Shown: positions 5,678 to 28,196 of the stretch, piece after piece
How the letters are laid out: the number at the start of each line of letters is the position of its first letter
Numbering within the stretch: the first letter of the stretch is position 1
Assembly: GCA_013289065.1 (NCBI GenBank)
Contig: JABDAP010000024.1
Coordinates: forward strand, 1 to 33,691
Direction of reading: 5' to 3'
Source: Bacteroidota bacterium
GTDB taxonomy: Bacteria > Bacteroidota > Bacteroidia > Chitinophagales > Chitinophagaceae
DNA: 33,691 nt
Made by a program: the position numbers and the translations under genes
The notes under the pieces: model-generated
Database searches by the model: none
What the model was told of the DNA's origin: nothing
Seen by the model: only the letters and a program-made list of their open reading frames with translations

Positions 5678-6538
5678 ATGAAAAATAAATTCACCTTTCT
5701 TTTTTTAGTTGCATTTTTTGTTTCAACATTCATAAACGCACAAACCAAAGAACCTGCAACCATTGGCCCCGATAAAGGGTCACTGATCATTGTTGGCGGC
5801 GGCAATGTAGGCGAAGAAATATGGAAAAGATTTGTAGAGCTTGCCGGCGGGGCCAATGCAAATATTGTTATTGTAACAACCGCAGATGATGATTCATCTA
5901 TCAGCCGTGGATTATCGCCCGAAAAAGATTCATTGATAAAACATGGTGTGCAGCAGATCGGTTTTCTTCACACGCGTGACCCCAGGATCGCTAACACGGA
6001 AGCGTTTGTTGAACCATTAAAAAAAGCAACCGGTATCTGGTTTCGTGGCGGAAGGCAATGGAAACTGGCAGACGCTTATCTTAATACACTCACACAAAAA
6101 GAATTTAGCCGTGTGCTGGAAAGAGGCGGTGTAATTGCCGGAACATCTGCAGGAGCCACCATTCAGGGTTCTTTTATGGTTCGTGGCGATACAAAAGGGA
6201 ATACCATTATGATCGGCGATCATACACAAGGATTGGATTTTATTCATCATGTAACGATTGATCAACATCATCTGAAACGAAACAGGGTGTTTGATCTTGT
6301 TGATGTGATTAAATCACACCCCGATCTTTTAGGAATTGGTTTGGATGAAAGCACAGCGATCGTTGTACAAAAAGATATGTTTGAAGTGATCGGTGTTTCT
6401 TATGTAGCTGTTTATGATATCGACCAGATCAACGGCCAGTCAAAAGGCCCACACGACCTCAACAGTTCATGGGGGCCGTTTTACTTTTTAAGTCACGGAC
6501 AGAAATACGATCTTAAGTTGCGGAAAATATCAAGATAA
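5678..6538 (+). CDS. Secreted cyanophycinase-like peptidase (S51 family)
   Basis: Signal peptide; GSLIIVGGGNVGEEIWKRF; IWFRGGRQWKLADAYLNT; VIAGTSAGATIQGSFMVRGD (Ser nucleophile); GIGLDESTAIVV. Confidence 0.9.
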   Translation: MKNKFTFLFLVAFFVSTFINAQTKEPATIGPDKGSLIIVGGGNVGEEIWKRFVELAGGANANIVIVTTADDDSSISRGLSPEKDSLIKHGVQQIGFLHTRDPRIANTEAFVEPLKKATGIWFRGGRQWKLADAYLNTLTQKEFSRVLERGGVIAGTSAGATIQGSFMVRGDTKGNTIMIGDHTQGLDFIHHVTIDQHHLKRNRVFDLVDVIKSHPDLLGIGLDESTAIVVQKDMFEVIGVSYVAVYDIDQINGQSKGPHDLNSSWGPFYFLSHGQKYDLKLRKISR

Positions 6539-7965: not shown

Positions 7966-8880
7966 ATGAATTCATCCCGCAGGTCATTCATTCAACAAAC
8001 AGCGCTGGCATTGGCCGGCAGTACTGTTTTATCAAGATCATTATTTGCCGCTGCATCCATCCAACATATTACCGGTATTCAGTTGTACACGGTAAGGGAT
8101 GATATGAAAAAGGATCCGCTTGCTACATTGAATGCACTTGCAGAAATGGGTTATCAATATGTAGAGCATGCCAATTATGTGAACCGCAAATTTTATGGCT
8201 ACAGCGCCACTGAGTTTAAAAAGATCCTGGAAGGGCATGGAATGAAAATGCTCAGCGGCCACACGGTAATGGGAAAAGATCATTGGGGTGAATCAAAACA
8301 ACAATTTACCGATGCATGGAAATATACGGTTGATGATGCGGCAACGGTTGGGCAACAATTTGTGATCAGCCCCTCATTCGATGAAAGCAGGCGCAAAACA
8401 TTTGATGATATCAAACGCTACATGGATGTATTCAATAAAAGCGGCGAACTGTGCAAACGATCAGGAATGCGGTTCGGCTACCACAACCATAATTTTGAAT
8501 TCAATGAATCATTGAACGGACAAAAAGTGTACGATATCATTTTACAATACACCGACCCTTCTTTGGTTGTACAACAGCTGGACATGGGCAACCTCTATGG
8601 AACCGGCGCCAATGCATACGAGATCGTTAAACAACATCCCGGAAGATTTATTTCAATGCATGTAAAAGATGAGATCAAATCGGCCAAAGGCGAAATGAAT
8701 GATGGTTATGACAGCACCATCCTCGGTACCGGTGTTGCCAACACCAAAGCCATTATTGATCTTGGTAAAAAGACCGGCGGCACATTACATTTTATTATTG
8801 AACAGGAATCGTACCAGGGAAGAACGCCGCTGGAATGTTCAAAAGAAGACCTGAAAGTGATGAAGAGCTGGGGTTATTGA
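7966..8880 (+). CDS. Sugar phosphate isomerase/epimerase (xylose-isomerase-like TIM barrel), Tat signal
   Basis: SSRRSFIQQTALALAGS Tat-like leader; GIQLYTVRDDMKKDP; FGYHNHNFEF; QLDMGN; HVKDE. Confidence 0.88.
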   Translation: MNSSRRSFIQQTALALAGSTVLSRSLFAAASIQHITGIQLYTVRDDMKKDPLATLNALAEMGYQYVEHANYVNRKFYGYSATEFKKILEGHGMKMLSGHTVMGKDHWGESKQQFTDAWKYTVDDAATVGQQFVISPSFDESRRKTFDDIKRYMDVFNKSGELCKRSGMRFGYHNHNFEFNESLNGQKVYDIILQYTDPSLVVQQLDMGNLYGTGANAYEIVKQHPGRFISMHVKDEIKSAKGEMNDGYDSTILGTGVANTKAIIDLGKKTGGTLHFIIEQESYQGRTPLECSKEDLKVMKSWGY

Positions 8881-9629
8881 TCCTTTGCCGGCGCATCATC
8901 TTTTTTGATCTCTTTTGCTGGCTTCGTTGTTTCAAACTGTACTATCTGTCTTTTATAAATTCCTTTTTCCAATGCATAGGTAATAATGCCTGCAATGCTT
9001 TTTGCACCGATCTTATCCATGATCCTGGTGCGGTGCCCTTCAACGGTTCGTTTGCTGAGGCTGAGTGTGAAGGCGATTTCTTTACTCGTGCATTCGCGGC
9101 AGATCAGGCGCATGATCTCTTTTTCGCGGTCGGTAAAACTGGCATCCACCTGTGGCGGCAACTGGTAATTTTTAGAAACGATCTCGGTTAATTTTTCTGT
9201 TATCTCGCGGCAGAAATAAGGTTTGTGGAGGAAAACGGCATTGATCGCATCCGAGATCTCGGTACAATCGGCGCTTTTTAACAGGTAACCCAATGCGCCG
9301 GCTTCCAGTGTTTTTAATATGGGTTCTTCTTTTCCGTGTGCCGACAAAATAATGATCCTGCACCCGGTCTTACGCCGCAGAATTTCTTTTGTGGCCGCAA
9401 CGCCATCCATTACAGGCATAGCGATATCTGTAAGGATCACATCGGGTAAAAGTTCAACAGCACGTTTTACCAGCTCCTGGCCATTTACTGCTTCGCCAAC
9501 CAATTCTACATTTTTGACCTGGGCCAAAAGGTTGCGCAAACCGTTCCTGAAAAGAACATGGTCATCTGCAATCACAACCCGGATGTTTCTTTTTTCCATG
9601 CAAGCGTTTTGGTTATAAGATCGTATCAA
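8874..9629 (-). CDS. NarL/FixJ-family response regulator transcription factor
   Basis: RVVIADDHVLFRNGL, DVILTDIAMPVMDGV, SAHGKEE...K, LuxR HTH FTDREKEIMRLICRECTSKEIAFTLSLSKRTVEGHR. Probable true start is ATG at 9599 (MEKRNIRVVIADD). Confidence 0.93.
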   Translation of the reverse strand: MIRSYNQNACMEKRNIRVVIADDHVLFRNGLRNLLAQVKNVELVGEAVNGQELVKRAVELLPDVILTDIAMPVMDGVAATKEILRRKTGCRIIILSAHGKEEPILKTLEAGALGYLLKSADCTEISDAINAVFLHKPYFCREITEKLTEIVSKNYQLPPQVDASFTDREKEIMRLICRECTSKEIAFTLSLSKRTVEGHRTRIMDKIGAKSIAGIITYALEKGIYKRQIVQFETTKPAKEIKKDDAPAKDQ

Positions 9630-10479: not shown

Positions 10480-10977
10480 ATGATAACAGCCATTACTTCC
10501 GCGTATAAAATGATCAGCAAACATGGCTTTGCTGATATCATGCAAAACAGTTCAACCGGAGAAAAGTCGCTGCACGCCACTTCTTTTTTTGATGTGGGCG
10601 ATACGATCCATGATTTTACTGCCGAAAAAGTTTTGGAAATCCCTACTTACCTTACTGTGCAGACAGGCGAGAACAAACACATCATACTATCGCCGGAGTT
10701 TTTGCAATACATCAATCATAGCTGCGACCCGAATGTTTTCTTCGATACGACCCGCATGCAGGTAATTGCTTTAAAAGAAATACAGCCGGGTGATGAACTG
10801 ATGTTCTTTTATCCTTCCAGCGAATGGGACATGACGCAACCATTTGATTGTTTTTGCGGAACAGCAAAATGCCTGCATCGGATAAAAGGCGCGGCGCATC
10901 TTACAGAAGAAGAAGCGGCCCGTTATAAGCTTACTGATTTTATACAACAACAGTTATTAAACAGAACGAAGAAATAA
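10480..10977 (+). CDS. SET-domain protein (putative lysine methyltransferase) with post-SET cysteine motif
   Basis: YINHSCDPNVFFD (NHSCxPN), QPGDELMFFYPSSEW (catalytic Tyr region), post-SET CFCGTAKC. Confidence 0.88.
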   Translation: MITAITSAYKMISKHGFADIMQNSSTGEKSLHATSFFDVGDTIHDFTAEKVLEIPTYLTVQTGENKHIILSPEFLQYINHSCDPNVFFDTTRMQVIALKEIQPGDELMFFYPSSEWDMTQPFDCFCGTAKCLHRIKGAAHLTEEEAARYKLTDFIQQQLLNRTKK

Positions 10978-10981
10978 TCTG

Positions 10982-12145
10982 ATGTATCCCTCTTCCGAAT
11001 GGATTCCTGCGGTGCCGGTTAACCGGCTGAAAATTTGGGTGCTGGCTCCCTGTCTCCTTACCAACGACGCCAATATCGATTACTACTACGACTTTTCGCA
11101 AAGCATTGCCGAATACACCAAAACGTTTGCTGAATTAAATATCAACTGGCACTGGCAACCCGTAACGATGAATGATTATGAAGTGATCATCGATGGTATT
11201 GTTGCAGAAAAAGAAGCTGGCAAATTTTTTCCCGTTGTTTTAAATTTATGCGATGGCGATGAAATAAACGGAACGCCCGGTGTTTCGGTTGTTCAGTTGC
11301 TTGAAATAAACGGATTGGTGTACACGGGTTCGGATGAATATTTTTACCGCATCACCACTTCCAAGATCCCGATGAAGCGTGCTTTTGATAAAGCAAAAGT
11401 TCCCACACCCAAATGGAAAGCGATCCTCTCAAAAGAAAAAGGGACGAAAAATATTTTTGATAAACTGGGCTGCCCAATTATTGTAAAACCTTCCGTATCC
11501 GGTGGCAGCATGGGCGTTGGTATCAAGAATGTTGTATCAACTCAGGAGGAATTACAGCAACAGATCCATAACATGTTTGAAGGTTACCGCGGATGGAACC
11601 TTGCAGCAGATGGCATCATCGCAGAAGAATTTATTACCGGCCCCGAGTTCACAACCATGATCGTTGGCTCTGCCCTGTTTCCCGATCAATGCAAAGTGCT
11701 GGCCCCTGTTGAAAGGGTATTTCATCCATCATTACCCGATACAGAAAAATTTTTATCATTCGACCGTTTGTGGGAAATATATGAAGAGGAATCAGCGATG
11801 CCCGGCGAAGACAGTTTTTATGAATACGGATCACCAGAAGCATCTCTTCATGATGCCATCAAACAACTAAGCCTCGATGCATACATAGCCGTTGGCGGTA
11901 CGGGTTATACAAGGGTTGATATCCGGATGGATCAGTCAACCAAAAAATTATACGTGCTCGAAGTAAATGCGCAATGCGGTTTAAGTGAAGATGAAGATTA
12001 TACCTCTATTGGTGCTATATTGCGCATGAGCGGCATTTCTTTTACAGAACTGATAGTTGAAATTATCAATGATGCATTCAGGAGAAAAGAAAAGGCCGAA
12101 CACGAAACTGTTTTTATTGCGCCCGTGCGGGAAAAATTGAAATGA
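10982..12145 (+). CDS. D-Ala-D-Ala-ligase-like ATP-grasp protein
   Basis: PIIVKPSVSGGSMGVGIKNV glycine loop; IIAEEFITGPEFTTMIV; GYTRVDIRMD...LYVLEVNAQCGLS. 4-bp gap from the SET gene. Confidence 0.88.
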   Translation: MYPSSEWIPAVPVNRLKIWVLAPCLLTNDANIDYYYDFSQSIAEYTKTFAELNINWHWQPVTMNDYEVIIDGIVAEKEAGKFFPVVLNLCDGDEINGTPGVSVVQLLEINGLVYTGSDEYFYRITTSKIPMKRAFDKAKVPTPKWKAILSKEKGTKNIFDKLGCPIIVKPSVSGGSMGVGIKNVVSTQEELQQQIHNMFEGYRGWNLAADGIIAEEFITGPEFTTMIVGSALFPDQCKVLAPVERVFHPSLPDTEKFLSFDRLWEIYEEESAMPGEDSFYEYGSPEASLHDAIKQLSLDAYIAVGGTGYTRVDIRMDQSTKKLYVLEVNAQCGLSEDEDYTSIGAILRMSGISFTELIVEIINDAFRRKEKAEHETVFIAPVREKLK

Positions 12146-13569
12146 AAGTCTGCGTACTACAACCTGATTACTCAAGAACTGCTGTGGATTACCAGTATTA
12201 TGATCCGCCCCGGAATTTATCAGCGTTATTGCCCGGTTCGCAGGTAGACCATGTATCACTCAATAAACTCACTACCTACAAACAACTCAAAGCATTACAG
12301 CATAAAGGCTATGATATTTTTGTAAACTTATGCGAAGGGTATCTTGAATGGGAAGTTCCATCCATCGATGTGATCTATACATTGGAATTACTGGGATTGC
12401 CATACACCGGCCCAACCACATTGTTATACGATCCGCCAAAAGAACTGATGAAATATGTTGCGTATTGCGAAAATGTTGCAACACCATCATATGTATTGAT
12501 CGAAAAAGAAGAAGATCTCGAAACAGCCAGTACACAACTAACTTTTCCTCTTTTTATAAAACCTGCCAAAGCCGGCGACAGTCTGGGTATCGATGAACAT
12601 TCTTTGGTGCACAATAAAGAAGAACTTGCCGAAAAAATAAAAACAACTTCAGAAGAATATCCCCAGCTGCTTGCGGAAGAATATATCGATGGCCGCGAAT
12701 TCACCATTCTTATCGCAGCGAACAGCGATGGACAAACAGCCACTACTTTTAAACCTGTGGAATATATTTTCCCTTCAGGCTTTCTGTTTAAAACATATGC
12801 ATTAAAAACTTCTGAGTTACATCCCGATGCAAATATTCCCTGCAACGATCCTGTTATTGAAAAACAATTGCGCGAGGCTGCACAAAAAATATTCAAAGGT
12901 TTTAACGGTGCAGGTTATGCGCGCCTGGATTTTCGGTTGAACGATAAAGGGCAGTTATTTTTTCTCGAAATAAATTTCACCTGCTCCGTTTTTTACAGCG
13001 ACGGTTATGAAGGCTCGGCCGATTATATATTAAAACATGATGGCATCGGCCAGCAGGGTTTTCTCAACCATATGATCGCCGAAGGCATTGCACGCCACGA
13101 ACGCATGCAAAAAAAATATATCGTTAAGGGAAATGCCATTTCCGGCTATGGAATTTATGCAACGAAACAAATTCAACCGGGCGAACTGATTTTTAAAGGC
13201 GAGGGCAGGTCGCAACGCATCATCACGCGCCGGTATGTGGAAGAGAACTGGCCCTTTAATGAAAAATTAATTTTCCGCCGTTATGCTTACCCGCTTAGTA
13301 ATGAGGTTTTTTTATTATGGGATGATAACCCAGCTGAATGGGCCCCGCAAAACCATTGCTGCCAGCCCAATACAAAATACGACGGGCTCAATGTAGCAGC
13401 CACTGTTCAGATAAATGCAGGCGAAGAACTAACGCTTGATTATGCTTCTTTCCTGGATGAAAATATGGAGCCCTTTCAATGTAATTGTGGCTCAATCAAT
13501 TGTCGCGGCTTAATTACAGGCAGGCCAGATAATTCGGTTACGCACAGGGAAAATAGGGCACAGCCTTAA
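12142..13569 (+). CDS. ATP-grasp ligase fused to C-terminal SET domain
   Basis: ATP-grasp: PLFIKPAKAGDSLGID, LLAEEYIDGREFTILIA, GYARLDFRLNDKGQLFFLEINFTC. SET: KGNAISGYGIYATKQIQPGELIF, NHCCQPNTKY, AGEELTLDYASF, post-SET CNCGSINC. ATGA overlap with the upstream ORF. Confidence 0.9.
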   Translation: MKVCVLQPDYSRTAVDYQYYDPPRNLSALLPGSQVDHVSLNKLTTYKQLKALQHKGYDIFVNLCEGYLEWEVPSIDVIYTLELLGLPYTGPTTLLYDPPKELMKYVAYCENVATPSYVLIEKEEDLETASTQLTFPLFIKPAKAGDSLGIDEHSLVHNKEELAEKIKTTSEEYPQLLAEEYIDGREFTILIAANSDGQTATTFKPVEYIFPSGFLFKTYALKTSELHPDANIPCNDPVIEKQLREAAQKIFKGFNGAGYARLDFRLNDKGQLFFLEINFTCSVFYSDGYEGSADYILKHDGIGQQGFLNHMIAEGIARHERMQKKYIVKGNAISGYGIYATKQIQPGELIFKGEGRSQRIITRRYVEENWPFNEKLIFRRYAYPLSNEVFLLWDDNPAEWAPQNHCCQPNTKYDGLNVAATVQINAGEELTLDYASFLDENMEPFQCNCGSINCRGLITGRPDNSVTHRENRAQP

Positions 13570-13701: not shown

Positions 13702-14637
13702 ATGTCAAGATTTGAGATTCTTCGAAAGCTGATGCAGAAACACCGGGGGCAACTGGTGTTTACGTATGTATTGTTTTCGCTGGAAATGCTGGGTTCATTA
13801 CTGCGCCCGTTTTTTCTCGGGGAAGCGGTGAATGATCTTATGAGAGGAAGTTATCGCGGGCTGATCATTTTATCTGCCGTTCACTTTGCATGGATCATCA
13901 TCGGTACTTTACGCCATCGGTATGATACAAGAACGTACTCGGCTATCTATACTTCATTAGTTACCCGTTTTTTATCACGCAGGATCGATCAGTCCGAAGT
14001 GTCTAAATTAAGCGCCCACTCAACACTTGCAAGGGAGTTTGTTGATTTTCTTGAATTCGACCTGGTGTATGTGATCGAAGCGATCTATAATTTACTGGGT
14101 TCGATCATCCTGTTATATTTCTATGACCGTTCGGTTGTTCTATTATGTCTCGCTATTCTTTTACCTGTTGTTGGTATCAGTTATGTTTATGGCAAAAGAA
14201 TGAAAAGGCTGAACCGTTTAAAGAATGATGAACTGGAACAGCAGGTAGACATTATTTCTTCCGGCGATAAAAAAGCGATCTTCAAACACTTTAATAACCT
14301 TCGCCACTGGCAGGTGCGCATCAGCGACCAGGAAGCATGGAACTTCGGTATCATGGAACTGATGGTGATGGTCGTGATCGGAATTTCTTTATTGGTTACG
14401 CACGCCGTTTCAGGAACAACCATACTTGCAGGTACCTTGATCGGTATCTATACATACATCCTCAAATTCGTATCGGGCCTTGATACAATACCTTATACCG
14501 TTCAACGGCTATCATCATTAAATGATATTACCCGCCGCATAGAATTACAGGCCGAAGATTTTCCTGTTGAAGGGACAGAAACCATTCAGCGGGATAAAAC
14601 GGTGCGGTTGTCTAAGATGAGTAAACCACTGATTTGA
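13702..14637 (+). CDS. ABC-exporter-type six-transmembrane domain protein lacking an ATPase domain
   Basis: Hydrophobic helices with ABC_membrane layout (LRPFFLGEAVNDLMRG, VLLCLAILLPVVGISYVYGKRMKRLN). No Walker A/B or signature motif before the stop. Confidence 0.75.
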   Translation: MSRFEILRKLMQKHRGQLVFTYVLFSLEMLGSLLRPFFLGEAVNDLMRGSYRGLIILSAVHFAWIIIGTLRHRYDTRTYSAIYTSLVTRFLSRRIDQSEVSKLSAHSTLAREFVDFLEFDLVYVIEAIYNLLGSIILLYFYDRSVVLLCLAILLPVVGISYVYGKRMKRLNRLKNDELEQQVDIISSGDKKAIFKHFNNLRHWQVRISDQEAWNFGIMELMVMVVIGISLLVTHAVSGTTILAGTLIGIYTYILKFVSGLDTIPYTVQRLSSLNDITRRIELQAEDFPVEGTETIQRDKTVRLSKMSKPLI

Positions 14638-21600: not shown

Positions 21601-24600
21601 ATGAACCAATATCAATTTTATAGATCAGTACTTTCTATTTCCGCGTTATTACGGGCGGATAGGATTGTGTGCAGGGCTTCCTGCGGAGTAAAACCGGCGC
21701 GTATATTTTTATTGGTTGCGATGATGTTGCCGTTTATTGTATCGGCGCAGGTTGATGCGGGGGGTATTGCAAAAAGCCAATGTATCACATCAGGCTCAAT
21801 ACCTTCGCTGTTTACTTCTTTGAGAGATGCGGCCGGAAGCGGCATAACAATAACATGGGAAAAAACAACTGTTGACAACACTTTTACATCAGGTGTTTCA
21901 ACCATTGCAACCGGAGTGCAATCGTATCAGGAGGCGGCTGTTGCCGTAACAACTTATTATCGAAGAGTTGTTACCAGTGGCGGGGTTCCCGTTTATAGTA
22001 ATGTGATAACAGTTAGTATTGTTGGCTCAGTTGTTAACCCAACATTTAATCCATCCGTGCCACCTTTCCCCATTATTTGCCAGGGAACAACAAGCTTCCC
22101 GGTAAATTATACCACTACCAATACCCCTGATCAATATTCTATAATATGGGATGCAACCGCAGCGGCGGCAGGTTTTACAGATGCAGTAAATCTTACACTT
22201 GCAGCAACACCGGGAAGTTTTAATGTAAGTGTTCCTTCAAATGCACCGGCGAATACTTATAACGGAACGTTGATAGCTGTTAATACAGGAACCGGTTGTA
22301 CCGTTTCAAATTCTTCTTCTGTTTTAATTAATCCATTGCCAACAGTAAGTATCACACCGCCTGCTGCAGTGTGTGCGCCGTCGTCGATTGACCTGACAAA
22401 TGCAAATATCACAAACGGTAGCACAGCAGATACTTACACACGATGGAATGATGCATTAGCAACTTCTTCTTTAACCAATGCGAATGCAGTAACGGCAACG
22501 GGTGTATACTATATAAAAGGCACGATCACAGCAACAGGTTGTTCAGTAATCAAACCTGTTACCGCTACGATCAATCCATTGCCAACAGCAACGGTCACAG
22601 CGGGCGGGCCAACAAGTTTTTGCGCAGGCGGATCAGTAACATTAACATCGAGCGCAGGAAATTCATATTCGTGGAATTCAGGACAAACATCACAGGCAAT
22701 TGTTGTAAGCGCCGGAGCAAATTATGCCGTTACGGTAACAAATGCAGCAGGATGTTCACTCTCTTCTTCTGTTACAACGGTAGTTGTTAATCCACTGCCA
22801 ACTGTAACTATTACAACACCTGCAGCAGTATGTGCACCGGCAACAATCGATCTGACAAATACAAATATTACAACAGGCAGCACAGCAGACACCTACACGC
22901 GATGGAATGATGCATTAGCAACTTCTTCTTTAACCAATGCAAATGCAGTAACGGCAAGCGGTGTATATTATATAAAAGGAACGATCGGTGCAACGGGTTG
23001 TTCGGTTATACAATCCGTTACGGCTACCATCAATCAATTGCCAACAGCAACGATCACAGCGGGCGGGCCAACAAGTTTTTGTGCAGGCGGATCAGTAACA
23101 TTAACATCGAGCGTGGGAAATTCATATTCGTGGAATTCAGGACAAACATCACAGGCAATCGTTGTAAGCGCCGGAGCAAATTATGCCGTTACGGTAACAA
23201 GCGCAGCAGGATGTTCACGCTCCTCTTCTGTTACAACGGTAGTTGTTAATCCATTACCAACTGTAAATATTACAACGCCTGCAGCAGTGTGTGCACCGGC
23301 AACGATCAACCTTACATCGGCAGGTATTACAGCAGGAAGCACGGCAAACTTTTACACACAATGGAATGATGTGTTGGCTGTTTCTTCTTTAACGAATGCG
23401 AATGCAGTAACGGCAAGCGGTGTATATTATATAAAAGGAACGATCGGTGCAACGGGTTGTTCGGTTATAAAACCCGTTACGGCAACGATCAATCAATTGC
23501 CAACAGCAACGATCACAGCAGGCGGCCCAACAACTTTTTGTACAGGCGGATCAGTAATATTAACATCGAGTGCGGGAAATGCTTATTCATGGAATTCGGG
23601 GCAAACATCACAGGCAATCGTTGTAAGCGCCGGAGCAAATTATGCCGTTACAGTAACAAGCGCAGCAGGATGTTCATCTGCATCTGCTGTTACACCGGTA
23701 GTGGTTAATCCCATTCCAGCCGTTACTATCACAACTCCTTCCGCTGTTTGTGCACCTGTAACAGTTAACCTTACAACAGCTGCCATCACAAATGGAAGTA
23801 CACCGGGATTGGTTTACACATACTGGACAGATGCAGCAGCAACCTCATCGCTAACTAATACAACTGCTATAAATACCAGTGGTACTTATTATATAAAAGG
23901 AACATCGCCTTCTGGTTGTTCAATGGTGCAACCTGTTTCAGTTATCATTAATACGCTGCCAACTGTAAATATTACCAACCCTGCGGCTGTGTGTGCGCCA
24001 TCGGTTATTAACCTTACATCTCCATCCATAACAGCAGGGAGTACTGCGGGAATAAATTTTACTTACTTCACAGATGCTGCTGCCGCAAATATTCTCTCAA
24101 CACCTGCAGCAGTAAGCAGTTCGGGTATTTATTATATTAAAGGGGTATTGCCTTCAACAGGTTGTACACTTATTAAACTGGTTGCAGTAACGGTAAATGC
24201 ATTGCCGGTTATTAATATCAACAACCCTGCGGCAGTTTGTGAACCTGCAACAGTCGATCTTTCTGCACCGGCTGTAACCAGTGGCAGTTCTTTGAGTACA
24301 ACATTCACTTACTGGACAGATGCTGCCAATACCATTGCGCTTATCACACCTGCATCAGTTGCCATATCGGGAACATATTATATTAAAGGAACTGTTGCAG
24401 GCAGTTGTTCCGCATCAAAACCGGTTTCAGTAATGATCAATCCATTACCAACAGGTGTATTGCAGCCGCCATCTGTTACATATATATGTGATGGCTTATC
24501 GCAAACACTTACCGCATCCGGGGCAAATAGTTATCAATGGTATCTTGATCAAAATATTATCACCGGCGCCACTGCTGCCAGTTATACAGCAACGGTTGGC

Positions 24601-25449
24601 GGAAATTATACTGTGCAGTTTGTTTCGAAAGATGGCTGTACCAGGAATGCAGCCAATGCCATTGCACTTGATCTTTTTGTAAAACCAATCGTTGCATTTA
24701 ATGCCGACAGCCGTTGTGCCGGATCGCTTATACATTTTACGAACAACTCATCCTATGCATCTTCAGGAACCGTTTCCTGGTTATGGGATCTTGGCGATGG
24801 GTCTTTTTCCAATAATTTATCAGCAACACATATCTATACTTCAGCAGCGGATTATGCGGTAGTATTAACTGCAAATAATATATCGTGCCCAAATCTTACA
24901 ACCGCTGCAACCGTTAATTATTCTGTTGAAACAGCATTGCCGGGTATCCGTTATGATACGATCTATTCTATCGGCAACAGATCATTCATCATCAATGCAC
25001 GCTCCTTTGGCGTGGGTTATTTGTGGCAGCCTTCAACAGGGTTACGGAATGCTGCTGCACAATCAACCATCATAAACCTCGACAGCAGCGTGTCATATAC
25101 GGTTGCCATCACCTCGGCAGCAGGATGTGTTACAACAGATTCTGTTTTTGTTAAGATAACCAATGATGGCGAGATCTATGTCCCGCAAGGCTTTACACCC
25201 AACGGCGATGGTATGAATGACCGTGCATACCCGATACTGATCGGAATAAAACAGCTGAATTATTTTAAGATATTTAACCGCTGGGGTAATATCGTTTTTC
25301 AAACAAATGATGCAGCACCTCAAAACGGATGGGATGGAAAATACCTGGGTAAGATGCAACCCACCGGAACATATGCATGGATAGCGGAAGCAATAGACGG
25401 GCACGGAAATATTATTCGCCGTGGTGGAAATATTCTTTTACTTAAATAG
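21601..25449 (+). CDS. Large repetitive secreted adhesin-like protein with PKD domain and T9SS type-B sorting domain
   Basis: Signal-like segment ARIFLLVAMMLPFIVSAQ; tandem Ig-like modules; PKD-like VSWLWDLGDGSFSNNLSATHIYTSAADYAVVLTA; C-terminal IYVPQGFTPNGDGMNDRAYPI...FKIFNRWGNIVFQT...GWDGKYLGKMQPTGTYAWIAEAID. Confidence 0.93.
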   Translation: MNQYQFYRSVLSISALLRADRIVCRASCGVKPARIFLLVAMMLPFIVSAQVDAGGIAKSQCITSGSIPSLFTSLRDAAGSGITITWEKTTVDNTFTSGVSTIATGVQSYQEAAVAVTTYYRRVVTSGGVPVYSNVITVSIVGSVVNPTFNPSVPPFPIICQGTTSFPVNYTTTNTPDQYSIIWDATAAAAGFTDAVNLTLAATPGSFNVSVPSNAPANTYNGTLIAVNTGTGCTVSNSSSVLINPLPTVSITPPAAVCAPSSIDLTNANITNGSTADTYTRWNDALATSSLTNANAVTATGVYYIKGTITATGCSVIKPVTATINPLPTATVTAGGPTSFCAGGSVTLTSSAGNSYSWNSGQTSQAIVVSAGANYAVTVTNAAGCSLSSSVTTVVVNPLPTVTITTPAAVCAPATIDLTNTNITTGSTADTYTRWNDALATSSLTNANAVTASGVYYIKGTIGATGCSVIQSVTATINQLPTATITAGGPTSFCAGGSVTLTSSVGNSYSWNSGQTSQAIVVSAGANYAVTVTSAAGCSRSSSVTTVVVNPLPTVNITTPAAVCAPATINLTSAGITAGSTANFYTQWNDVLAVSSLTNANAVTASGVYYIKGTIGATGCSVIKPVTATINQLPTATITAGGPTTFCTGGSVILTSSAGNAYSWNSGQTSQAIVVSAGANYAVTVTSAAGCSSASAVTPVVVNPIPAVTITTPSAVCAPVTVNLTTAAITNGSTPGLVYTYWTDAAATSSLTNTTAINTSGTYYIKGTSPSGCSMVQPVSVIINTLPTVNITNPAAVCAPSVINLTSPSITAGSTAGINFTYFTDAAAANILSTPAAVSSSGIYYIKGVLPSTGCTLIKLVAVTVNALPVININNPAAVCEPATVDLSAPAVTSGSSLSTTFTYWTDAANTIALITPASVAISGTYYIKGTVAGSCSASKPVSVMINPLPTGVLQPPSVTYICDGLSQTLTASGANSYQWYLDQNIITGATAASYTATVGGNYTVQFVSKDGCTRNAANAIALDLFVKPIVAFNADSRCAGSLIHFTNNSSYASSGTVSWLWDLGDGSFSNNLSATHIYTSAADYAVVLTANNISCPNLTTAATVNYSVETALPGIRYDTIYSIGNRSFIINARSFGVGYLWQPSTGLRNAAAQSTIINLDSSVSYTVAITSAAGCVTTDSVFVKITNDGEIYVPQGFTPNGDGMNDRAYPILIGIKQLNYFKIFNRWGNIVFQTNDAAPQNGWDGKYLGKMQPTGTYAWIAEAIDGHGNIIRRGGNILLLK
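22333..23709 (+). repeat. Three tandem 459-bp (153-aa) coding repeats, each a 243-bp A module plus a 216-bp B module
   Basis: Units begin at cca 22333, 22792 and 23251, with the next A module at 23710. A/B boundary in unit 1 is at 22576. Confidence 0.95.
23710..24441 (+). repeat. Three diverged A-type modules without B modules (243, 246, 243 bp)
   Basis: PIPAVTITTPSAVCAP (23710), TLPTVNITNPAAVCAP (23953), ALPVININNPAAVCEP (24199); the next module, B-like, begins at 24442. Confidence 0.88.
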
Positions 25450-25463
25450 TTGATCCAGCCGGA

Positions 25464-26471
25464 ATGTTCAAACGAACCAGACATATTATACTGCTTAGTT
25501 TTTTTATGTGCGCGAGTTATATAAGTATTGCACAGGATCCGCATTTTTCGCAATACTTCAGTTCGCCGCTGACATTCAATCCCGCATTTACAGGATATTT
25601 TGAAGGGTCAAGCCGGCTCACCGCAAACCTGCGCAGCCAATGGGCCAACGCAGGCGATACCTATGCAACCGGTACCGTTTCTTATGATACGAAGATCATG
25701 AAAACAAAGATCAGCGGCAACGACCGCTTGGGATTGGGTGTGCATGCATTGTATGACCAATCTTCCGGTGGCATTTTTAAAAACACTTATCTCTCACTGT
25801 CAACCGCATTTAACAAAGGCCTTGATGCGGAAGGCAATCAAAGTATAGGTATCGGCATACAGGCAACATTTGCACATAACAGTATCGACTTCAATAAAAT
25901 TTCTTTCAGCGACCAGTTTAACGGAAACGGTTTTGACCTCACTATTCCAAGCGGCGAAACAATTAATAACCGTTCTGCTTCTTATATGGATCTGAATGCG
26001 GGTGTTTTATATAATTATAAAGATGAAAGCGGCAACCAGTTTTCATTTGGTGCGGGTATTTTTCATTTGCTTACGCCAAAACTTTCTTTTTTTGCAGGAA
26101 ACAATAACTCCGTTCAACCGCGCTATACAATTCATGCCGGCGCCGGTTTTAATATGGGAGAGAATGATGATCTTTTTATAAGTGCGCACACAATGCAACA
26201 GGGAGGAGCCAGTGAATACGTGATCGGCGGGGCGTATGGGTTGGGTATTGGTACTAGCGGTATGTCGCTTTATTTAGGCGCATGGGTACGTGCAAAAGAT
26301 GCAGTATACCCATATATAGGATTACGAACACCCGATTTTCAACTGGGATTAACGTATGATATCATCACATCAGGACTCAGCCGTGTAAAAACTTTCAGCG
26401 GCAGCAGTGAATTATCTTTTATCTATTATATCAGCGCGAACAGGAAAAAGGGAATACCGTGTTTTTTCTGA
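25464..26471 (+). CDS. Type IX secretion system membrane protein PorP/SprF family
   Basis: AQDPHFSQYFSSPLTFNPAFTGYFEGSSRLTANLRSQWA; GLGVHALYDQSSGGIFKNTYLSLSTAF; outer-membrane beta-strand pattern; 14 bp after the adhesin. Confidence 0.93.
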   Translation: MFKRTRHIILLSFFMCASYISIAQDPHFSQYFSSPLTFNPAFTGYFEGSSRLTANLRSQWANAGDTYATGTVSYDTKIMKTKISGNDRLGLGVHALYDQSSGGIFKNTYLSLSTAFNKGLDAEGNQSIGIGIQATFAHNSIDFNKISFSDQFNGNGFDLTIPSGETINNRSASYMDLNAGVLYNYKDESGNQFSFGAGIFHLLTPKLSFFAGNNNSVQPRYTIHAGAGFNMGENDDLFISAHTMQQGGASEYVIGGAYGLGIGTSGMSLYLGAWVRAKDAVYPYIGLRTPDFQLGLTYDIITSGLSRVKTFSGSSELSFIYYISANRKKGIPCFF

Positions 26472-27782: not shown

Positions 27783-28196
27783 TCAATACCCTTCCACTTC
27801 CACGATCTTCCCGTAATCAACAAATAACTCTTCTCCATTGGCAATATCACGCGTGGCTTCAAACCATTTGCCGTCTTCAACAGAAATAAGATTGTAATCA
27901 GCAGAATGGTTCAGGTAGTTTGCAAAATCCATTATTTTACAACCATGTGCGGGTATAAAATAATGATGCTCGTTGTAGAGATAGTAGGTCTCAATAAAAT
28001 TTCTTGCATGTTCAGGCAACTGCTCCACTTCTTCCATACCGAGTTGGATCCACCCGCCGGTTTCTTTTGAAAAAATAGTACGGCAGCCTTTGGGAATATT
28101 CCGGATAGCAAATACGCCGATGCCTTCTACGGGTGATGGCTTTAGCATCACATAGGTTTCGTGCTGCAGTTCGTGCAGTAATGCTTCTTTTGTCAT
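27783..28196 (-). CDS. SET-domain-containing protein
   Basis: KPSPVEGIGVFAIRNIPKGCRTIF; FANYLNHSADYNL; ATRDIANGEELFVDYGKI. No post-SET cysteines. Confidence 0.85.
   Translation of the reverse strand: MTKEALLHELQHETYVMLKPSPVEGIGVFAIRNIPKGCRTIFSKETGGWIQLGMEEVEQLPEHARNFIETYYLYNEHHYFIPAHGCKIMDFANYLNHSADYNLISVEDGKWFEATRDIANGEELFVDYGKIVEVEGY

Follow-up and report, generated by a model that had tools for sequence, protein, structure and literature searches.

What could be the product of a compact cluster of genes in which peptide-ligase-like domains and SET domains are encoded next to one another and, in one gene, within a single polypeptide? We considered this question for a cluster in the window, by which we mean the whole 33,691-nucleotide stretch of DNA that was analysed. 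A first-pass annotation had described three codirectional ORFs at 10480-13569, with a gap of 4 bp between the first two and an overlap of 4 bp (ATGA) between the last two, and had proposed that they build a methylated small peptide or, alternatively, a methylated tag on a protein. We judge the methylated small peptide to be, with modest confidence, the better of these two readings.

Gene content and surroundings of the operon

The same ORFs, gap and overlap were found again at the same positions (Table 1), and Pfam agrees with the assignment of ORF1, ORF2 and ORF3 as a SET protein, a Ddl-like ATP-grasp protein and an ATP-grasp-SET fusion, respectively. Likewise, the ligase core motifs are present in AG (EEFITGPEF, RVD and EVN) and in AGS (EEYIDGREF, RLD and EIN), as are the SET motifs (NHSCDPN or NHCCQPN, a tyrosine and CxC...C), most of which are invariant or near-invariant in relatives. 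The earlier view of the locus as a three-gene unit held in that all three genes are real, but it overlooked T, which is a member of the unit in many genomes. T consists of a transmembrane domain only, having neither a Walker A nor an LSGGQ motif, and does not qualify as a complete ABC transporter, which combines a transmembrane domain with a nucleotide-binding domain.

Table 1. Positions of the operon genes and their domains in the window
Feature	Position	Strand	Description
S1 (ORF1), free-standing SET-domain methyltransferase, BurB-like	10480-10977	+	165 aa; Pfam SET, E 5.9e-10
AG (ORF2), stand-alone Ddl-like ATP-grasp ligase	10982-12145	+	387 aa; Pfam Dala_Dala_lig_C, 5.7e-20
AGS (ORF3), ATP-grasp ligase with fused C-terminal SET	12142-13569	+	475 aa; Pfam D-Ala-D-Ala ligase C-terminal domain, 3.7e-23, and SET, 4.8e-9
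AGS ATP-grasp part, approximately residues 1-322	12142-13107	+	Pfam match 122-278, Ddl fold match; boundary taken from the structure model
AGS SET domain, Pfam residues 335-434, followed by post-SET cysteines	13144-13443	+	PF00856
T, transmembrane protein of the ABC_membrane_3 type that lacks a nucleotide-binding domain; probable product transporter	13702-14637	+	PF13748, 3.9e-45

The host genome is 2.4 Mb in size and 53% complete, and Sediminibacterium is among its nearest named relatives. Promoter and terminator scans gave results no better than those for shuffled sequences. We rejected a larger operon that would take in the upstream response regulator and the oxidoreductase and RecQ genes that follow T, which are kept in only part of the genus and not family-wide. 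The response regulator is of the LuxR type (8874-9629, - strand); within the genus, many genomes have it divergently upstream of the operon, a position from which it is absent in the other genera examined. A third SET gene, likewise not mentioned in the first-pass annotation, is located 14 kb from the operon (27783-28196, - strand) and encodes a separate short SET protein of 137 aa (PF00856, 3.6e-11). Since similar short SET genes are found in most of the AGS-bearing genomes checked, this gene is not specific to the operon. Elsewhere in the window are a gene for a cyanophycinase-like S51 peptidase (5678-6538, + strand; NCBIfam score of 124.6 bits against a cut-off of 126.6), which is not a conserved neighbour of the operon, and a gene for a secreted protein of 1282 aa that combines PKD and Ig-like domains with a type IX secretion signal of the CHU_C kind (21601-25449, + strand), which is followed by a PorP/SprF gene (25464-26471). 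Shadow ORFs spaced 459 bp apart in the gene for the secreted protein suggest internal repeats.

Conservation and co-inheritance of the gene set

Co-occurrence and gene order in related genomes had been proposed as a check on the system, and the order proved to be conserved. AGS is present in 85 of 296 Chitinophagaceae genomes (29%), representing 38 of 104 genera, and its homologues in the family keep their full length at 58-84% identity, mostly 58-75%. S1 is present in 80 of the 296. Counted without regard to kinship, the two genes occur together in 79 genomes, AGS occurs alone in six (three of them under 80% complete) and S1 occurs alone in one. In 10 of the 79 genomes that carry both, S1 and AGS are on separate contigs or over 6 kb apart, with some contig breaks that could hide linkage; since S1 is unlinked and yet present in these genomes, the co-inheritance of S1 and AGS is not a mere consequence of linkage. 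AG adjoins AGS in the neighbourhoods examined. T immediately follows AGS in 15 of 41 neighbourhoods and is found in 36 of the 296 genomes, 35 of which also have AGS.

Comparison with close relatives (L034, and L006 for AGS) gave dN values of 0.05-0.17 and dS values of 1.3-1.9, the latter near saturation, for dN/dS ratios of about 0.03-0.12. Given this low dN relative to dS, all four genes (S1, AG, AGS and T) are under purifying selection. The gene set is conserved and far from chance.

More distant forms of the system were found in a phylum sample of 396 genomes, of which 17 carry AGS, 16 carry S1 and 15 carry both, leaving two with AGS only and one with S1 only. One genome (G594) has all three genes, with AGS on a different contig from the S1-AG pair, and two divergent AGS carriers (G597 and G724) are without S1. 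Many of the AGS carriers in this sample are green sulfur bacteria, which were recognised by their FMO antenna protein. Their gene order is SET, AGS, a full ABC exporter with both transmembrane and nucleotide-binding domains, and a second short SET. In a tree of Ddl, AG and AGS proteins, the Chlorobial AGS sequences are placed inside the AGS clade with support of 99/97, on long branches. No AG was found in green sulfur bacteria; this counts against a small-product pathway, as does the absence of T from 50 of the 85 AGS-bearing Chitinophagaceae genomes.

The nearest 80 matches in an all-genome scan are all named either as Bacteroidota or as uncultured. Spread by plasmids was rejected, as no plasmid record covers 80% of AGS in either its Chitinophagaceae or its Chlorobial form. 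A viral origin was likewise rejected, the seven IMG/VR contigs that match AGS doing so in the ATP-grasp half only and at 21-31% identity. We also rejected an anti-phage defence system, since none of the four proteins has a PADLOC match. In one genome (L092, 10880-12480, - strand), DNA methyltransferase-like and restriction-enzyme-like genes are inserted between AG and AGS, both of which are retained. In another (L198, 5041-10792, - strand), AGS lies beside genes for N-formylglutamate amidohydrolase-like, MATCAP-type carboxypeptidase and glutathione-synthetase-like proteins.

Ligase and SET domains compared with known enzymes

When AG and AGS are aligned to the host genome's own Ddl (L216), the lysine, glutamates, Arg-x-Asp and Glu-x-Asn that in Ddl bind ATP and Mg and support catalysis are seen to be kept in both. 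By these residues and by fold, both proteins belong to the ATP-grasp carboxylate-amine ligases and share the acyl-phosphate machinery of Ddl. Ddl enzymes are also the closest solved structures to AG and AGS, and Foldseek matches to the AGS structure model (pLDDT 87) include Ddl structures. In contrast, the D-alanine loops of Ddl (GGxSxE, HGxxGEDG and the Ser-containing loops) are gone from both ligases. In their place, AG and AGS have in common NLC[DE]G and an Asn-x-x-Cys loop, which do not occur in the compared Ddl sequences, and AG has an invariant acidic loop, NAQCGxSEDE, at the position of the Ddl second-substrate site. The best NCBIfam models for both proteins are Ddl models, with scores far below cut-off (87.9 and 92.5 bits for TIGR01205, against 245.65). 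Ddl, AG and AGS form three separate clades in the tree, and AGS differs further in its fusion to SET. On the family scores, the lost D-Ala motifs and the tree, we rejected the possibility that AG and AGS are true Ddl enzymes. Since the ATP and Mg residues are kept while the substrate loops, clades and scores set them apart, AG and AGS are, to judge from their residues, probably Ddl-type ligases that act on other substrates.

The resemblance to Ddl, together with the linked membrane transporter, could be taken to mean that the two ligases are modified forms of Ddl whose product is a methylated dipeptide destined for peptidoglycan or some other envelope polymer, with T serving in a flippase-like role. 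We consider this improbable, as the D-Ala binding motifs are lost from both ligases, the genome has a Ddl of its own, neither Mur genes nor other envelope genes are among its conserved neighbours, and the system occurs in only 29% of the family.

The nearest solved structure to S1, by sequence and by fold, is BurB rather than a histone methyltransferase. An S1 profile matches BurB (9l4t) over nearly its full length with an E value of 3.5e-20, whereas histone enzymes are matched at approximately 1e-8 and over the C-terminal half only. The top three fold matches of the S1 model (pLDDT 92) are BurB entries, with TM scores of 0.69-0.71 and a sequence identity of about 24%; NCBIfam has no match for S1. 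BurB from Burkholderia thailandensis and MSMT from Streptomyces mobaraensis are SET-domain methionine S-methyltransferases that are similar to S1 in size as well as fold, and all have HSCxPN, the tyrosine and the post-SET cysteines. BurB S-methylates free methionine, which it holds mainly by main-chain contacts (PMC12542666; PMC7496086), and side chains therefore do not reveal which substrate S1 uses. BurB was presented as a rare case of a prokaryotic SET enzyme with a metabolic role, at a time when natural-product methyltransferases were otherwise known from classes I and III only (PMC7496086). The two proteins differ in that the BurB SAM-contact side chains His72, Arg133 and His138 are not conserved in S1, which counts against the small-product pathway; BurB His93 corresponds to the invariant His80 of S1. 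Their partners differ as well: BurB is encoded with a decarboxylase, a transaminase and a dehydrogenase that lead toward DMSP (PMC7496086), whereas S1 is accompanied by ligases and a transporter, and no DMSP pathway partner genes were found in the operon or among its recurrent neighbours.

In the SET domain of AGS, NHxCxxN, Tyr434 and Cys447/449/454 are invariant or nearly so. The NHxCxPN region, the tyrosine and the post-SET cysteines are kept phylum-wide in both SET domains (METHYLTRANSFERASES) and, with the SET fold, place both among the SET-domain methyltransferases. Structure prediction had been proposed as a check for dead SAM or ATP pockets. Given that the confident S1 and AGS models match BurB and Ddl, respectively, and that the catalytic residues are kept, neither predicted pocket looks dead.

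The SET domain of AGS resembles KMT2D and BurB to the same degree, matching KMT2D over its full length with an E value of 4.4e-13, and this too counts against a small-product pathway. It would suit a role in protein modification resembling that of tubulin tyrosine ligase-like enzymes: AG and AGS would attach amino acids to a target protein, at a side chain or at its end, and lysines of that protein or of the tag would be methylated by the SET domains. Protein lysines are the substrate of most studied SET enzymes, and the MATCAP-type carboxypeptidase gene that adjoins one AGS gene fits such a role. So does the eukaryotic protein TTLL12, in which, as in AGS, a SET-like and an ATP-grasp-type domain are combined in one chain. 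In TTLL12, however, the SET domain precedes a TTL-type ligase, both domains are without critical residues, and the protein is inactive in vitro (PMC3520985), whereas AGS has a Ddl-type ligase first and SET after it, with the residues kept. We rejected TTLL12 as a relative of AGS because of its reversed domain order and lost residues. Protein modification is, in our estimation, unlikely, since S1 is closest to an enzyme that acts on a free amino acid, the unit is linked to a membrane transporter and has no conserved gene for a target protein, and its ATP-grasp domains are of the Ddl and not the TTL kind.

TTLL12 was the only relevant case of ATP-grasp combined with SET in open-access full texts, although earlier mention in the subscription literature is possible. 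The gene system is real, widespread and, in the open-access literature, seemingly undescribed.

A candidate pathway to a methylated small product

We lean toward the view that the product of the operon is a small, methylated, peptide-like metabolite, which is made non-ribosomally and moved across the membrane. A small transported product is favoured over a protein tag because S1 is BurB-like, a transporter is present in both lineages and no precursor ORF is conserved; lysine is no more than a candidate methyl acceptor. As had been noted from the window, no precursor peptide ORF is apparent, and the family set showed no conserved small ORF next to the operon. We rejected a RiPP or graspetide system, for which a conserved precursor gene is lacking there.

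The analysis shows which genes are present, that they are conserved and inherited together, which folds they are predicted to adopt and that their catalytic residues have been kept. What follows is a possible scheme, in which we infer the reactions and the sequence of steps as well as the atom methylated and the passage through the membrane. S1 would methylate a small building block or a free amino acid with SAM, in the way that BurB methylates methionine. AG and AGS would each in turn activate a carboxylate with ATP as an acyl phosphate and join it to an amine, for two amide bonds in all, and the SET domain fused to AGS would place a methyl group on the substrate, or on the product, of the ligase to which it is joined. 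T may then carry the product through the inner membrane, a step for which green sulfur bacteria would use the full ABC exporter instead. That the product crosses the membrane is suggested mainly by the finding that the two lineages carry transporters of different types. A comparable logic is known from the cystargolide and belactosin pathways, in which amino acids are joined by ATP-grasp enzymes outside the ribosome and NRPS and a pathway methyltransferase takes part; that enzyme, however, is a carboxyl methyltransferase, is not reported as a SET protein, is not fused to a ligase and is found in other hosts (PMC11427300).

SET domains have been treated nearly wholly as protein lysine methyltransferases and chromatin enzymes, and here they are tied and fused to peptide ligases in more than a quarter of the sampled Chitinophagaceae genomes and in green sulfur bacteria. 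A bolder proposal, conceivable but in our view falling somewhat short of probable, is that AGS is a bifunctional ligase-methyltransferase that, with S1 and AG, makes a new class of methylated short peptides in Chitinophagaceae and green sulfur bacteria, the SET domains acting on small amino-acid substrates. If so, SET chemistry would extend to peptide metabolism, with a defined gene set in hand, and annotation of AG and AGS as D-Ala-D-Ala ligase and of the SET domains as lysine methyltransferase would be misleading.

A zwitterionic or sulfonium dipeptide that stays inside the cell to serve as an osmolyte, and for which S1 would first make a sulfonium or methylated amino acid, is a very improbable alternative to a transported product. 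It would accord with the formation of S-methylmethionine by BurB en route to DMSP, with the acidic loop of AG, which could suit a cation, and with a ligase pair in genome G641 that occurs with GNAT and an aminomutase-like enzyme, as in the synthesis of N-acetyl-beta-lysine, which has an osmolyte role. The operon has no osmostress gene as a conserved neighbour, and named hosts such as Sediminibacterium and Ferruginibacter are mostly freshwater and soil bacteria, for which strong salt stress is atypical. The tandem Ddl-like ATP-grasps of G641, which lie beside GNAT and a lysine-2,3-aminomutase-like gene, are analogous to S1-AG-AGS in having an amino-acid-altering partner; they are only distantly related to AG and AGS (E about 1e-28), and aminomutase and GNAT take the place of SET. 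Locus L236 (6519-10349, + strand) carries tandem Ddl-like ATP-grasps and GNAT beside a lysine-2,3-aminomutase-like radical SAM gene, and locus L234 (1827-3948, + strand) carries a single Ddl-like ATP-grasp beside such a gene; these loci are possibly another modified-amino-acid ligase system. One such Ddl-like ligase also lies beside a similar aminomutase on a contig from a viral collection.
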